Assembly (NCBI RefSeq): GCF_012927275.1 | Contig: NZ_JABBGG010000002.1 | Span: 186,001-250,000, forward strand | Reading direction: 5' to 3' | Length of the DNA: 64,000 nucleotides | Source: Massilia polaris | GTDB taxonomy: Bacteria > Pseudomonadota > Gammaproteobacteria > Burkholderiales > Burkholderiaceae_D | Shown: positions 7,026 through 59,903 of the stretch, piece after piece | Position numbering within the stretch: position 1 is the first letter of the stretch | Layout: the number at the start of each line of letters is the position of its first letter | Notes under the pieces: generated by a model | The model's database searches: none | Told to the model about the DNA's origin: nothing | Seen by the model: only the letters and a program-made list of their open reading frames with translations | Program-made: the position numbers and the translations under genes

Positions 7026-8618
7026 GTGTCCAACCAATTAAGCCGCCGCCTGGCGCTTCTCGACGACGACGAACGCCGTTCCGTGCTGGGCGAGGGGCTG
7101 CGCGGCATCGAGCGCGAAACGCTGCGCGTCGACCCGCGCGGCAACCTCGCCGCGACGATGCATCCGGTCGCGCTGGGATCCGCGCTGACCAATCCGCAGA
7201 TCACCACCGACTACGCCGAAGCCCTGCTGGAATTCATCACCCCGGCCGAAAACGACATCGGCACCACGCTCAACCAGCTCGACGCTATCCACCGCTTCGC
7301 CTACCAGCACATGGGCGACGAGATGCTGTGGAGCGAGTCGATGCCCTGCGAGCTGCCGGCCGAAGAAGATATCGAGATCGCGTACTACGGCACCTCGAAC
7401 ATCGGCACGCTCAAGAACGTGTACCGCCGCGGCCTCGCGCTGCGCTACGGGAAGGCGATGCAGTGCATCGCCGGGATCCACTACAACTACTCGCTGGCTG
7501 AAAAATTCTGGCAGCTTCTGTCGGCCAACGAAGGCATTCCGGAGGAACGCCGCCGGCCGTTGCGCGACTTCCAGTCCGAAGGCTACATCGCCACGATCCG
7601 CAACTTCCGCCGCTACAGCTGGCTGCTGATGTACCTGTTCGGCGCCTCGCCTGCGCTGTCGAAAAGCTTCCTGCGCGGACGCCGGCACGACCTCGAGACG
7701 CTGTCCGGGGACACCCTGTACCTGCCGTACGCGACCAGCCTGCGCATGAGCGACCTGGGTTACCAGAACGCCGCGCAATCGGGCCTGACCCCGCACGAGA
7801 ATTCGCTGGAGAGCTATGTCACGACGCTGATGGATGCGGTCAACCGCCCATACGCGCCGTACCAGGAGCTCGGCACCAAGAAGGACGGCGAATGGATCCA
7901 GCTGTCGACCAACGTGCTGCAGATCGAGAATGAATACTATTCGACGATCCGACCGAAGCGCGTGATCCGCACCGGGGAACGCCCTGTGCAGGCCTTGTGC
8001 CGTCGCGGCGTGCAGTACATCGAAGTGCGCTGCCTCGACGTCGATCCGTTCGAGCCGGTCGGCATCAGTGTCGAAACCGGCCGCTTCCTCGACACCTTCC
8101 TGCTGTTCTGCGCGCTCGACGACAGCCCGCTCATCGACGCCATCGAAAGCCAGGTCCACGCGCGTAACTTCGCCGACACCGTCAAGGAAGGCCGCAAGCC
8201 GGGATTGATGCTGACCCGCGGCGGCGAGGAAGTCACGCTGCAGGACTGGGCGCGCGAACTGATGGACCGCATCCGCCCGGTCGCTGCGCTGCTCGACGAA
8301 CAGCACAACGAAGCCGGCGTGCACGCGGCATCGCTGGCGGTGCAGGAAGCGAAAGTCGCCAACCCGGCGCTGACGCCGTCGGCGCGCGTGCTGGAACAAG
8401 TGCGCGCGCTCGGCTCCAGCGCGGCCTTCGGACTGCGCCAGAGCGAACTGCATGCCGCGTACTTCCGCGAGTCCCCGCTGATGCCGGCCGAGGAGGCGAT
8501 GTTCGCCGAGATGGCGGCCGTGTCTTTGGCCGAACAGGCACGCATCGAACAGGCCGACACCGGCAACTTCGACGACTTCGTCGCCGCCTACAACAGCAGT
8601 ACCCTGTGCGGCGAATGA
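7026..8618 (+). CDS. gshA: Glutamate-cysteine ligase
   Basis: A 530-residue protein of the proteobacterial GshA type, catalysing ATP-dependent formation of gamma-glutamylcysteine, the first step of glutathione synthesis. Recognisable blocks are [13 protein letters not shown] near the N-terminus, [25 protein letters not shown], and [14 protein letters not shown] in the second half. The start is GTG at 7026, preceded by AAAGGA. A glutathione peroxidase gene is also in the window at 54425-55018. The elaA-like gene follows 70 bases later on the same strand. Confidence 0.96.
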
Positions 8619-57093: not shown

Positions 57094-57294
57094 TTACATG
57101 CGCTTGCCCGGCATCTTGCTTTCGCCGTCGCGTTTCACTTCCAGCAGGAAGCCAGGGGCCAGCTCGTAACGGCCAAGGTAGGAGTCGAATGTCGCAGGGG
57201 CGATCTTGACCGCCATGCGCTCCAGCGGCTTTTCCGCCGTGCGGGCATGGGTGACCGGGTCGCCGCCGTCGTGTTGCAACTCCGCCTTCGGCAT
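57094..57294 (-). pseudogene. Relic of a serine hydrolase (beta-lactamase/DUF3471-type) C-terminal region
   Basis: A 66-residue fragment: MPKAELQHDGGDPVTHARTAEKPLERM, then VKIAPATFDSYLGRYELAPGFLLEVKRDGESK. The segment xIAPATFDSYLGRYELAPGF is a common feature of the C-terminal domain of beta-lactamase-fold hydrolases, which should be preceded by a 300-residue catalytic domain and followed by more strands. Both are absent, so it is a truncated remnant. The open frame extends upstream to 57600 but that part has no recognisable domain. The stretch 57295-57664 is AT-richer and holds nothing I can identify. Confidence 0.6.
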
Positions 57295-57664
57295 GTTTAC
57301 GATGGAAGGGCAATTTGGGGGGCGAAAGGCAAGTTCATTTCGCCAACGGGAAAACCAACCCGGACCGGCCGGGAGATTGAGGAAGAGCAAGCTCAGCTCG
57401 TCTATACGGAACGCATGCCGTGGTAGGTACTCAAACCGATCAGTACGCAAGTGTATGGGATTGGCGAGCAGTGTAGACAGCGTACCGCCGTCACCAGCTG
57501 GAGCGAACGAGGTCAGGCTCGAAGCGCTGGTGTAGGCAAGTACCCGGGCGTGCGGTCGGCCTGGGTCGATGACTCGTCTATGAGCAGGAGGAAATTGCAT
57601 GGTCGCAGCGTCATCCTTGTACCCCTACCTTCCCTTACAACTTGTTGCAAATAAGGAGCAGAAA

Positions 57665-57808
57665 ATGGACGATTCACTGATCAGCGTCATTGACGCCACT
57701 GTTCGCGCGATCCTGGTTATCGACGATCATCGCATGGGTGGACTGATCGTTTGCATAATAGTCCTTGGAATAGCGAGTCTTATGAGCCGACGGTCGAAAT
57801 CGTCCTGA
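57665..57808 (+). CDS. Small membrane protein, 47 residues
   Basis: A short gene with an excellent ribosome site (AAGGAG at six bases from the ATG at 57665). The product, MDDSLISVIDATVRAILVID then GGLIVCIIVLGIASLMSRRSKSS, has one membrane helix and a basic tail facing the cytoplasm. I do not recognise a family. It lies in a pocket of AT-richer DNA, 60 bases before the hsdS-like gene, so it could belong to that unit, but this is inference. Confidence 0.6.
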   Translation: MDDSLISVIDATVRAILVIDDHRMGGLIVCIIVLGIASLMSRRSKSS

Positions 57809-57868
57809 GCAGCAGCCACCGCGCCTTCGCCGGGTCTCCTAGCGGAGGCAGATGCAAAAGCCATCAAC

Positions 57869-58450
57869 GTGAAACTCGATCACATTGCATCCGTTCGAAC
57901 CCTGATGACCTTCCGCGACCGGGTCCCGTCCGACGGCGCGGACGGCAACGCCTGCGTGCTTGCCATCCGCGACATCGTGTCGCGCTGGCCGGCCGATTAT
58001 GCGTCGCTGCCAACGGTCGACGCCGACGACGGCCAGCTGGCCGACCGCCTGCTAGAAGGCGACATCCTGCTGCCGGGACGCGGTTCTTCCTATCCCGCCC
58101 GGCTGTTCCGCGGGGCGCCGCTGCCGGTCTTCACGGCCGGGCAAATATTCGTGATCCGCGCGCGCAAGGATGTGCGCGCCAACTACCTGTGCTGGTACCT
58201 GAACCGGCCCGACGTGCAGGCCGGCATCACCCAGCTGCTGGCCGGGTCCGCGATCCAGGCCCTCAACAAGTCCAGCCTGCTGCGGATCGAGGTGGCCGTG
58301 CCGCCACTGAAAGACCAGCAGGCAATCGCCGACCTCCAGTCGCTCGCCGATCAACGTTCGCGCCTGCGGCTGGAGCTTGAACAACTCGACCATGCCGAGA
58401 TCGAGCATGCGTGCGAGGCGCTGCTCGAACAACGAGGCTCGCATGGCTAA
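57869..58450 (+). CDS. Type I restriction specificity subunit-like protein (single domain)
   Basis: A 193-residue HsdS-like protein, about half the usual length (about 400). It has a single target-recognition domain of the methylase-S fold: LLEGDILLPGRGSSYPARLF, RANYLCWYLNRPDVQAGITQLLAGSAIQALNKSSLLRIEVAVPPLKDQQAIADL and a coiled-coil helix to the end. This TRD plus one conserved helix suggests it works as a dimer. The start is GTG at 57869, overlapping the stop of a six-codon leader frame (57852-57872). It overlaps the methylase gene by eight bases. Confidence 0.82.
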   Translation: MKLDHIASVRTLMTFRDRVPSDGADGNACVLAIRDIVSRWPADYASLPTVDADDGQLADRLLEGDILLPGRGSSYPARLFRGAPLPVFTAGQIFVIRARKDVRANYLCWYLNRPDVQAGITQLLAGSAIQALNKSSLLRIEVAVPPLKDQQAIADLQSLADQRSRLRLELEQLDHAEIEHACEALLEQRGSHG

Positions 58451-59903
58451 AACTTCCAAGAAAGAGGCGCGAGCGGGGGTCACCGAAATCCTTGCCCTGC
58501 TCCGCCATGCGTTCCCGCCTGCCCCGTCTGTTCACTTCCTGATCGCCCTTGTCACCCTGCGCTGGCTGGCCGACGCCCGCCGCGATTCCCTCCCGCTCCC
58601 CTGCCACCTCGAGCTGCCTGGCTGCCTCGAATACCACGTGCCGCTGACCTTGCACGAAGACCAGCTCGGCCACTGGTTCGAAGCGATGTTCAAGCAGCTC
58701 GAAGACGCCAACCCTACCGAACTGAACGGCTTGTTCAGCGGCCTCGACTTCACGTCGCCACGCTTCAAGTCCGACGACGACGGCCGCAGCCTGCTGATGC
58801 GCGCGGTGGAAATCCTGTGGTTTAAGGACCGCTACCAGTGCAGCTTCGACCTGATGAAGGAAGCGCTGGCGATTGCGCGCAGCTGCCTCGTGACGGGCTT
58901 TTCGGCGCCCGAGTTCAATACACCGGCCTCGTTGTGCGAGCTGGCCGCCAGGCTGGCGCAGCCACAGGCAGGCGAGTCCGTGTACGACCCGGCCTGCGGC
59001 ACCGGGCAGATGCTGATCCATTGCGAGGGAACGCTGAAATGCAGCCCGAAGCAAGTCAGGCTGTTCGGCGCCGAGCCCCACGCCACCGCGTGGACGCTGG
59101 CGAAAGTCAGCGCGCTCTACCATGGTTTTTCGTCGGAACATATCGGCATGTCCGATTCCCTCCAGCCCGAAAACGTGCTCGAGTCGGACGATGGCCAGCG
59201 CAAGTTCGATGTGGTGATCGCCCATCCGCCCTGGGGCGCGAAGGAATGGCGCGCCGAGAATCCGCCGCCGGAACGGCACGAACGCTTCCGCCGCGGCATG
59301 CCGCCGAAAAATAACGGCGACTACGCCTACCTGCTGCACATGGTCGCGTCAATGAAGGACGATTCCGGACGCATGGTGGCGATCGTTTCCAGCGGCGTCC
59401 TGTCGCGCGGGGCCCAGGAAGGCCGTATCCGCATGCGGCTGGTCAAGGACGACCTGGTCGACGCGGTGATCGCGCTGCCCGAGAAAATGTTCCACGGCAC
59501 GCCAGTCGGGGGAGCTATGCTGGTCATGCGGCGCAAGCGCAGCACGCGCAATGTCCTGTTCATCGATGCGCGCGGGTTCGCAACCGGCGCGGGCGGCAAG
59601 AATACATTTTCAGCGCAGGCCATCGACTGGATCGCCCATGCCTGCGCGGCCCGCAAGAGCGAACCCGGCGTCTCGGCACTGGCCGCCATCGATGAGATTG
59701 TCGAGCACGGGTATTCGCTCAGCGTGTCGCTGTATATCCGCGCGGAGCAGGAGAACAGCAGTGCCGATATCCATGCGATACGCTGCCGCCGCAAGAAGCT
59801 GCATGACGAACTGGGCGGCATCAACCAGCAGATCGACGACTTGCTCGACGCCGTGATGTCCGGTGACGAGAAACGCGCACGGCTGACCGAGCCGCTGCGC
59901 TGA
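58443..59903 (+). CDS. N6-adenine DNA methylase-like (HsdM-type) protein with an atypical motif IV
   Basis: A 486-residue HsdM-like protein: N-terminal helical domain (ITEIL-like VTEILALLRHAFPPAPSVHFLIALVTLRWLAD), then SAM domain with motif I VYDPACGTGQMLIH (D182-G188) and a motif IV reading IAHPPWG, where H261 replaces the Asn of NPPF/Y. The C-terminal coiled coil (RRKKLHDELGGINQQIDDLLDAV) should contact HsdS. The Asn is directly involved in adenine amino group binding, so activity is doubtful or altered. No hsdR is adjacent. ATG at 58443, overlapping hsdS. Confidence 0.85.
   Translation: MAKTSKKEARAGVTEILALLRHAFPPAPSVHFLIALVTLRWLADARRDSLPLPCHLELPGCLEYHVPLTLHEDQLGHWFEAMFKQLEDANPTELNGLFSGLDFTSPRFKSDDDGRSLLMRAVEILWFKDRYQCSFDLMKEALAIARSCLVTGFSAPEFNTPASLCELAARLAQPQAGESVYDPACGTGQMLIHCEGTLKCSPKQVRLFGAEPHATAWTLAKVSALYHGFSSEHIGMSDSLQPENVLESDDGQRKFDVVIAHPPWGAKEWRAENPPPERHERFRRGMPPKNNGDYAYLLHMVASMKDDSGRMVAIVSSGVLSRGAQEGRIRMRLVKDDLVDAVIALPEKMFHGTPVGGAMLVMRRKRSTRNVLFIDARGFATGAGGKNTFSAQAIDWIAHACAARKSEPGVSALAAIDEIVEHGYSLSVSLYIRAEQENSSADIHAIRCRRKKLHDELGGINQQIDDLLDAVMSGDEKRARLTEPLR

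Follow-up and report, generated by a model that had tools for sequence, protein, structure and literature searches.

Half-HsdS and HsdM Genes of Massilia polaris: A DNA-Marking Enzyme That May Have Turned Genetic Switch

The described systems closest to the locus reported here are the type 1 1/2 methyltransferases (M.AhdI, M.PshAI, M.BsaBI), in which a gamma-class methylase (M) and a half-sized specificity subunit (half-S) are encoded by separate genes and the targets are bipartite palindromes; M.AhdI has the composition 2M+2S, and the Asn of the motif NPPY hydrogen-bonds the target amino group (PMC3874165). Dimers of half-HsdS proteins bind palindromes with short spacers, such as ACC-N5-GGT, and have been likened to transcription factors (PMC6158711). 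RptR, a small dimeric repressor encoded by the first gene of a type I restriction-modification island, binds palindromes in its own promoter (PMC12255303). Operons of the Acinetobacter pittii plasmid pAP2044-1 and of an Enterobacter MGH 14 plasmid have a short S gene directly before M, and similar sites about 71 bp apart flank a sigma-70-like promoter. The MS promoter of AhdI is reportedly damped by methylation of its own site.

We analysed a 64-kb stretch of DNA from Massilia polaris ("the window"), in which a small gene, a half-S gene and an M gene lie on the plus strand beside a convergent atpC. The same module occurs in four other genomes (G001, G010, G005 and G070). Like the type 1 1/2 systems it has separate M and half-S genes, but it has no recognised endonuclease or C protein, motif IV of its methylase reads HPPW instead of NPP(F/Y/W), and it has two paired upstream sites and a conserved small membrane protein gene at the head of the operon. 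The two plasmid operons differ in their added full-length S and hsdR and in an M with NPPF. RptR, judged by its description, sites and features, is a 9-kDa helical DNA-binding protein with TAGCTA sites, whereas the small gene in the window encodes a hydrophobic stretch and looks like a membrane protein gene, the DNA-binding proteins recognised are S and M, and the dyads are of the form GTA-N6/7-TAC. Measured against type I restriction-modification, the gamma-class HsdM fold and SAM motifs are present, a two-TRD HsdS is replaced by a protein of 193 aa with a single TRD-like part, and no HsdR subunit was found by PF18766 across the genome. MADS (MAD2/MAD5) was rejected on NCBIfam scores of 30.1 and 15.7 bits against cut-offs of 720 and 400.

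The Three Genes and Their Methylase Motifs

57665-57808, plus strand: gene for a small membrane protein of 47 aa with the signature DDHxxGGLIV (from the open frame, a profile and relatives)
57869-58450, plus strand: half-HsdS of 193 aa, one TRD and one dimerisation helix (GTG start at 57869; Pfam, model)
58443-59903, plus strand: HsdM-like protein of 486 aa with a full HsdM fold (ATG start at 58443; Pfam, model)
58917-58919, plus strand: codon of Asn159 in motif X (EFNTP), a position that is mostly Tyr/Phe in relatives
58986-59006, plus strand: motif I DPACGTG, the SAM site, residues 182-188 (DPxCGxG in 5/5 module genomes)
59223-59234, plus strand: motif IV HPPW, residues 261-264 (His261 codon CAT, 59223-59225)

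An earlier, sequence-only reading had described a single-domain HsdS-like gene that precedes and overlaps an HsdM-like gene by eight bases, a methylase that keeps motif I but has His261 in motif IV, and a strong ribosome site ahead of a 47-residue membrane protein. All of this stands: the overlap is 58443-58450, Pfam places S in Methylase_S (E=4e-6) and M in N6_Mtase (E=1.2e-64), both motifs read as described, and the ribosome site is AAGGAG. The AlphaFold model of S (pLDDT 88.8) combines a single TRD-like part with a single long C-terminal helix, and that of M (pLDDT 86.4) shows a complete HsdM-like fold, both models being built on 23-row alignments. The solved structures nearest to the M model are PacII M subunits; those nearest to the half-S model are PacII S and Esub1 (PDB 8vsr, 8vsq), the latter being the best match (TM 0.74, 23% identity). 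The Esub1 entry title gives co-crystallisation with Prx, which we take to be phage paratox; no linkable Esub1 paper was among the matches listed.

The strongest hydrophobic stretch of the 47-aa protein is GLIVCIIVLGIASLM (KD 2.83 over 15). Family libraries name no family for it and give sub-threshold matches only: 13 bits to NF038396 (cut-off 40) and two PHROGs matches with E of 0.06 and 0.14, with no Pfam match up to E=1. A small protein of the same kind accompanies an S-M pair among other neighbours in a further genome, G299; it scores 17 bits against T4SS_pilin (cut-off 26.6) and has no plasmid relatives up to E=1, and the S protein beside it has no phage relatives up to 1e-5.

That no hsdR is present had also been claimed, and a search of the whole host genome (30 contigs, completeness given as 100) with SWI2_SNF2 (PF18766) agrees: it returned zero matches and hence no SWI2/SNF2-type hsdR, hidden or otherwise, a result that holds for this profile in the window's genome, the control with the same profile being positive in 10 of 14 genomes. 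The window's M gene is the sole match to N6_Mtase (PF02384) in the genome, which rules out a second M partner, and the sole further match to Methylase_S is a 271-aa open frame on another contig.

We placed 42 of 55 M sequences in a tree and a motif table; the 13 left out are nine second copies of included loci and four distant sequences with NPPF. The five M proteins of the module form one clade (support 100/99; the tree program flags long branches). His occupies motif IV in every one of them, as HPPW in four and as HFPW in G005, which has lost the first Pro, and all five have Asn in place of Tyr/Phe in motif X, a replacement seen in 0 of the 37 other rows. Motif IV has Asn in 35 of those 37, the exceptions being G032 (HLPF) and a pair on a Vibrio gigantis plasmid (CPPF). 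Motif I, the acidic residue of motif II and the Asp of motif III are retained throughout the clade. The His is thus no private mutation or assembly error, an explanation for which the sequence-only reading had left room: an alignment with HsdM homologues finds the same residue in four relatives, at 81, 71, 47 and 33% identity. The locus as first noticed is confirmed at the sequence level to be real and beyond chance, since four other genomes share its three genes and the His, and it extends further than first described.

N6-adenine methylation has most likely been lost in the window's lineage, although the substituted His might still receive a hydrogen bond from the amino group of the target base. 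The module might instead be an active orphan type 1 1/2 methyltransferase, in which HPPW still methylates adenine or another base, the upstream dyads are its targets and feedback runs through methylation, as reportedly in AhdI. Motifs I-III are kept, the GTA/TAC dyads described below hold adenines, and G299 combines an NPPW motif IV with a small protein of this kind and the same promoter layout. Given the motif IV and motif X contrast with the other rows, the loss of the first Pro in G005 and the CPPF of the Vibrio pair, we consider continued methylation possible but doubtful.

In G032 (L047, 4390-8469, on a 9.6-kb contig), a short S is followed by an M with HLPF in motif IV and TAP in motif X and by a 654-aa HsdR that matches PF04313 (HSDR_N) and PF18766 (SWI2_SNF2). 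This has the appearance of a further type I locus in which the methylase site is altered.

Conservation, Selection and Genomic Place

In the five genomes, which belong to two genera, the small gene, S and M keep one order between atpC and a gene that we take, from its sequence, to encode an amidase. Identities to the window in G001, G010, G005 and G070, respectively, are 77, 64, 36 and 33% for the small protein, 85, 84, 65 and 42% for S, 81, 71, 47 and 33% for M, and 98, 98, 98 and 95% for AtpD. In each comparison involving G005 or G070, S retains more identity than M (for the window, 65 versus 47% and 42 versus 33%), as expected if the DNA target of S is fixed. The small upstream gene had been proposed as a possible third component, and its distribution bears this out: a profile of the protein matches 5 of 274 genomes, exactly those with the S-M pair. 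The rows of that profile came from the window, G001, G010, G070 and G299; the G005 match is not a profile row, and G299, a row that is absent from the matches, presumably lies outside the 274-genome sample.

M relatives above 40% identity occur in 3 of 16 other genomes of the genus, and a relative at 33-34% was found in another genus of the family (392 genomes searched). The S profile matches 2 of 62 genomes in the genus of G070 (G070 at 322 bits, G334 weakly at 37 bits); at E<=1e-20 its matches number 3 among 399 genomes of the order and 6 among 369 of the class, where the five beyond the window score 75-85 bits. No S or M match was seen at the atpC loci of 12 other genomes of the genus or at 18 others from G070's genus, the latter taken from 60 genomes with an atpC match, G070 included; among these loci, L138 is just 919 bases long and L143 3.8 kb. 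The gap behind atpC in module-free relatives is short or occupied by other genes. One such relative, G310, carries an Abi_2 family gene at this spot (L154, 7973-8896; E=2.2e-53). As the spot varies between species and holds Abi_2 in G310, it may be an insertion spot for defence genes. A recent island was rejected, the GC of the genes resembling their surroundings and the place being common to two genera; the module's history could be one of early gain with many losses or of repeated arrival at the same spot.

Selection on the module is purifying. Among the window, G001 and G010, dN/dS is 0.20-0.36 for the small gene; it is 0.13-0.28 for S and 0.18-0.50 for M. The M values against G005 are 0.43-0.50, so M may partly be decaying. 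One could go further and see the whole locus as a decaying type I remnant that has lost hsdR and a full hsdS, the His being a mark of lost function. Relatives of M do sit in operons of the order short S, M, full S, hsdR; M is conserved less than S; and the adjoining hydrolase gene is itself a remnant in the window. Yet several species have intact genes under purifying selection, the upstream dyads have been preserved, and the same His and Asn recur in 5/5, all of which makes wholesale decay very unlikely. The hydrolase remnant (57094-57600, minus strand) belongs to a serine-hydrolase gene, of which 56 aa match a 577-aa open frame of G001 at 77%; most of the gene seems to have been deleted in the window strain. 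From its sequence we presume it to be beta-lactamase-like.

Paired Dyads and Promoters Upstream

57471-57486, no strand: candidate operator 1, a GTGTA-N7-TACC dyad (same site in G001; one half changed in G010)
57530-57544, no strand: candidate operator 2, a GTGTA-N6-TACC dyad whose start lies 59 bp from that of operator 1

Alignment of the window, G001 and G010 reveals conserved upstream blocks. Relative to the small gene, GTA-N6/7-TAC dyads lie at -192/-133 in the window, -190/-131 in G001, -189/-130 in G010 and -123/-61 in G070, a spacing of 59 in the first three and 62 in G070. G299 also has two dyads 62 apart, one N6 and one N8, and G005 has one full dyad with the second present as its left half only, at +59. 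A GTA-N6/7-TAC pair at a spacing of 55-65 is present in 4 of 29 loci (window, G001, G010, G070). In 400 shuffles of each locus, such a pair never arose for 28 loci and arose at a fraction of 0.0025 for the remaining one. The loci counted include those that supplied the pattern, and the window, G001 and G010, being homologous upstream, are not independent. The pair occurs once in the 64-kb window and not at all in 268,911 bases of 30 atpC loci lacking the module. A single GTGTAGRCANNGTACC site is within chance, 26 of 100 shuffles holding at least one within 2 mismatches, and a half-site-blind search for pairs of 4-bp-arm dyads 45-80 apart finds 2 of 29 loci versus ~0.9 from shuffles, which is not significant.

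G070 and G299 each have a promoter, TTGACA-N17-TATTGT/TATTAT, in the stretch that separates the two dyads. No recognisable -35/-10 was seen upstream in the window, G001, G010 or G005, none reaching the promoter score. For a blind test of such bracketing, the best sigma-70-like promoter of each locus was taken by score; 11 of 29 loci have one, and the other 18, the window included, fall outside the test for want of a scoring promoter. In six of the 11 (G070, G299, G031, V. gigantis, Acinetobacter, Enterobacter), the flanks are alike beyond all 187 control promoter-like sites; L066 gave 0.021, and four loci were unremarkable, G185 among them (candidate bracket 0.14). With the blind test, the case for a bracket becomes stronger in six loci and weaker in G185. 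The bracketing sites are 59-62 bp apart, except in the Acinetobacter and Enterobacter operons, where the distance is ~71. In an earlier test of eight loci, similarity between a locus's own sites was 9.9 versus 5.8 between loci (0 of 2000 shuffles, 9 of 40320 permutations); those loci had been picked after inspection, and the largest cross-locus score, 11, exceeds several own scores. By eye, no bracket was seen in 18 of 25 loci.

The pair in G031 is followed directly by what we take, from its sequence, to be a seemingly complete type I operon, and an apparent hsdR-like gene, assigned in the same way, lies near the G185 pair on the opposite strand. Single palindromes, GGCGAG/GACGAG, were considered as operators in these two loci and dropped once other sites appeared. 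The V. gigantis pair (plasmid NZ_CP092386.1, L078, 5675-7946) consists of a half-S and the M with CPPF, preceded by a 60-aa hydrophobic ORF, and has a complete type I system on one side and AbiE genes on the other; two TTTACAT dyads flank its TTGACA-N17-TACTAT promoter, and dyad 2 contains TAGCTA. Mutually similar-looking small proteins, presumably SinR/Cas2-like by their sequence, take the first-gene place before other short-S operons (L073, flipped, 7326-7610; L077, 5644-5934); that of L073 has no Pfam match. A single dyad of the GCATCA-N7-TGATGC type, possibly an operator or a hairpin, lies ~40-100 nt before short hsdS genes in L019, L020, L021, L022, L023, L068, L080 and L084.

Because G299 has NPPW and yet the same layout, the layout is independent of the His, which suggests that the His arose after the layout. 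The site tracks S loosely: the S proteins of G031 and G185 (43 and 38% identical to the window's) are closer to the window's S than that of G299 (36%). This looseness would also suit a reading in which an unrelated regulator, either a host protein or an RptR-like repressor, binds the dyads while S-M does something else. Binding of the dyads by S-M is predicted from sequence, and the TAGCTA in the second V. gigantis dyad is the RptR site (PMC12255303). Nevertheless, the module keeps this layout in a second genus, among different neighbours in G299 and on a Vibrio plasmid; none of the 30 module-free atpC loci has the GTA pair; and no gene for a separate DNA-binding protein was recognised within the module of the window. 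An unrelated regulator is, in our judgement, quite unlikely.

A Candidate Self-Binding Regulator

The reading we prefer, and hold to be about as probable as all others together (roughly 50%), is that a type 1 1/2 (2M+2S) methyltransferase has become a regulator of its own operon, to whose upstream DNA it binds, and probably no longer methylates. The half-HsdS would probably dimerise and join two M subunits in a 2M+2S complex of the M.AhdI kind that reads a bipartite palindrome. As paired palindromes lie near 60 bp apart upstream, the complex most likely binds there, at two sites of approximately GTGTA-N6/7-TACC, perhaps bridging both, and bound complex would repress its own three-gene operon. 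In the window's lineage, Tyr159 would have changed to Asn and Asn261 to His with the SAM site kept, leaving a putative SAM-binding, DNA-binding regulator. The small protein may be the regulated product that matters, and our guess is that it acts as an effector or a membrane tether. The sequence-only reading had offered a regulatory module among several options, and that part gains support, at the level of sequence, from the paired operator-like dyads, which it had not noticed. These dyads are what is new here.

A more specific version of a regulator is conceivable, in which S-M is a decoy restriction enzyme that guards against anti-restriction: phage DNA mimics (Ocr, ArdA) or SAM-destroying enzymes would strip the operators, and the small membrane protein would then be expressed and harm the infected cell. 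Such a decoy would be the restriction counterpart of CRISPR-guarded toxins (CreTA). We regard it as unlikely. Among the matches listed (mostly from non-subscription journals, with no preprints), no paper describes, in its title or the start of its abstract, an HsdS/HsdM pair as a regulator binding its own promoter or an HsdM with HPPW; the nearest published idea among those matches is the comparison of half-HsdS dimers with transcription factors in PMC6158711.

In this soil bacterium, then, a set of restriction parts without the cutting enzyme may represent a DNA-marking enzyme turned genetic switch. If the self-binding reading is true, half-HsdS/HsdM complexes can evolve from DNA-marking enzymes to transcription regulators, which would make it easier to understand why certain S-M pairs are retained although they lack a nuclease of their own and have altered active sites. 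It would also suggest that the short HsdS genes before some type I operons are controllers, and it would connect anti-restriction proteins to a possible membrane effector in a concrete way that can be tested.
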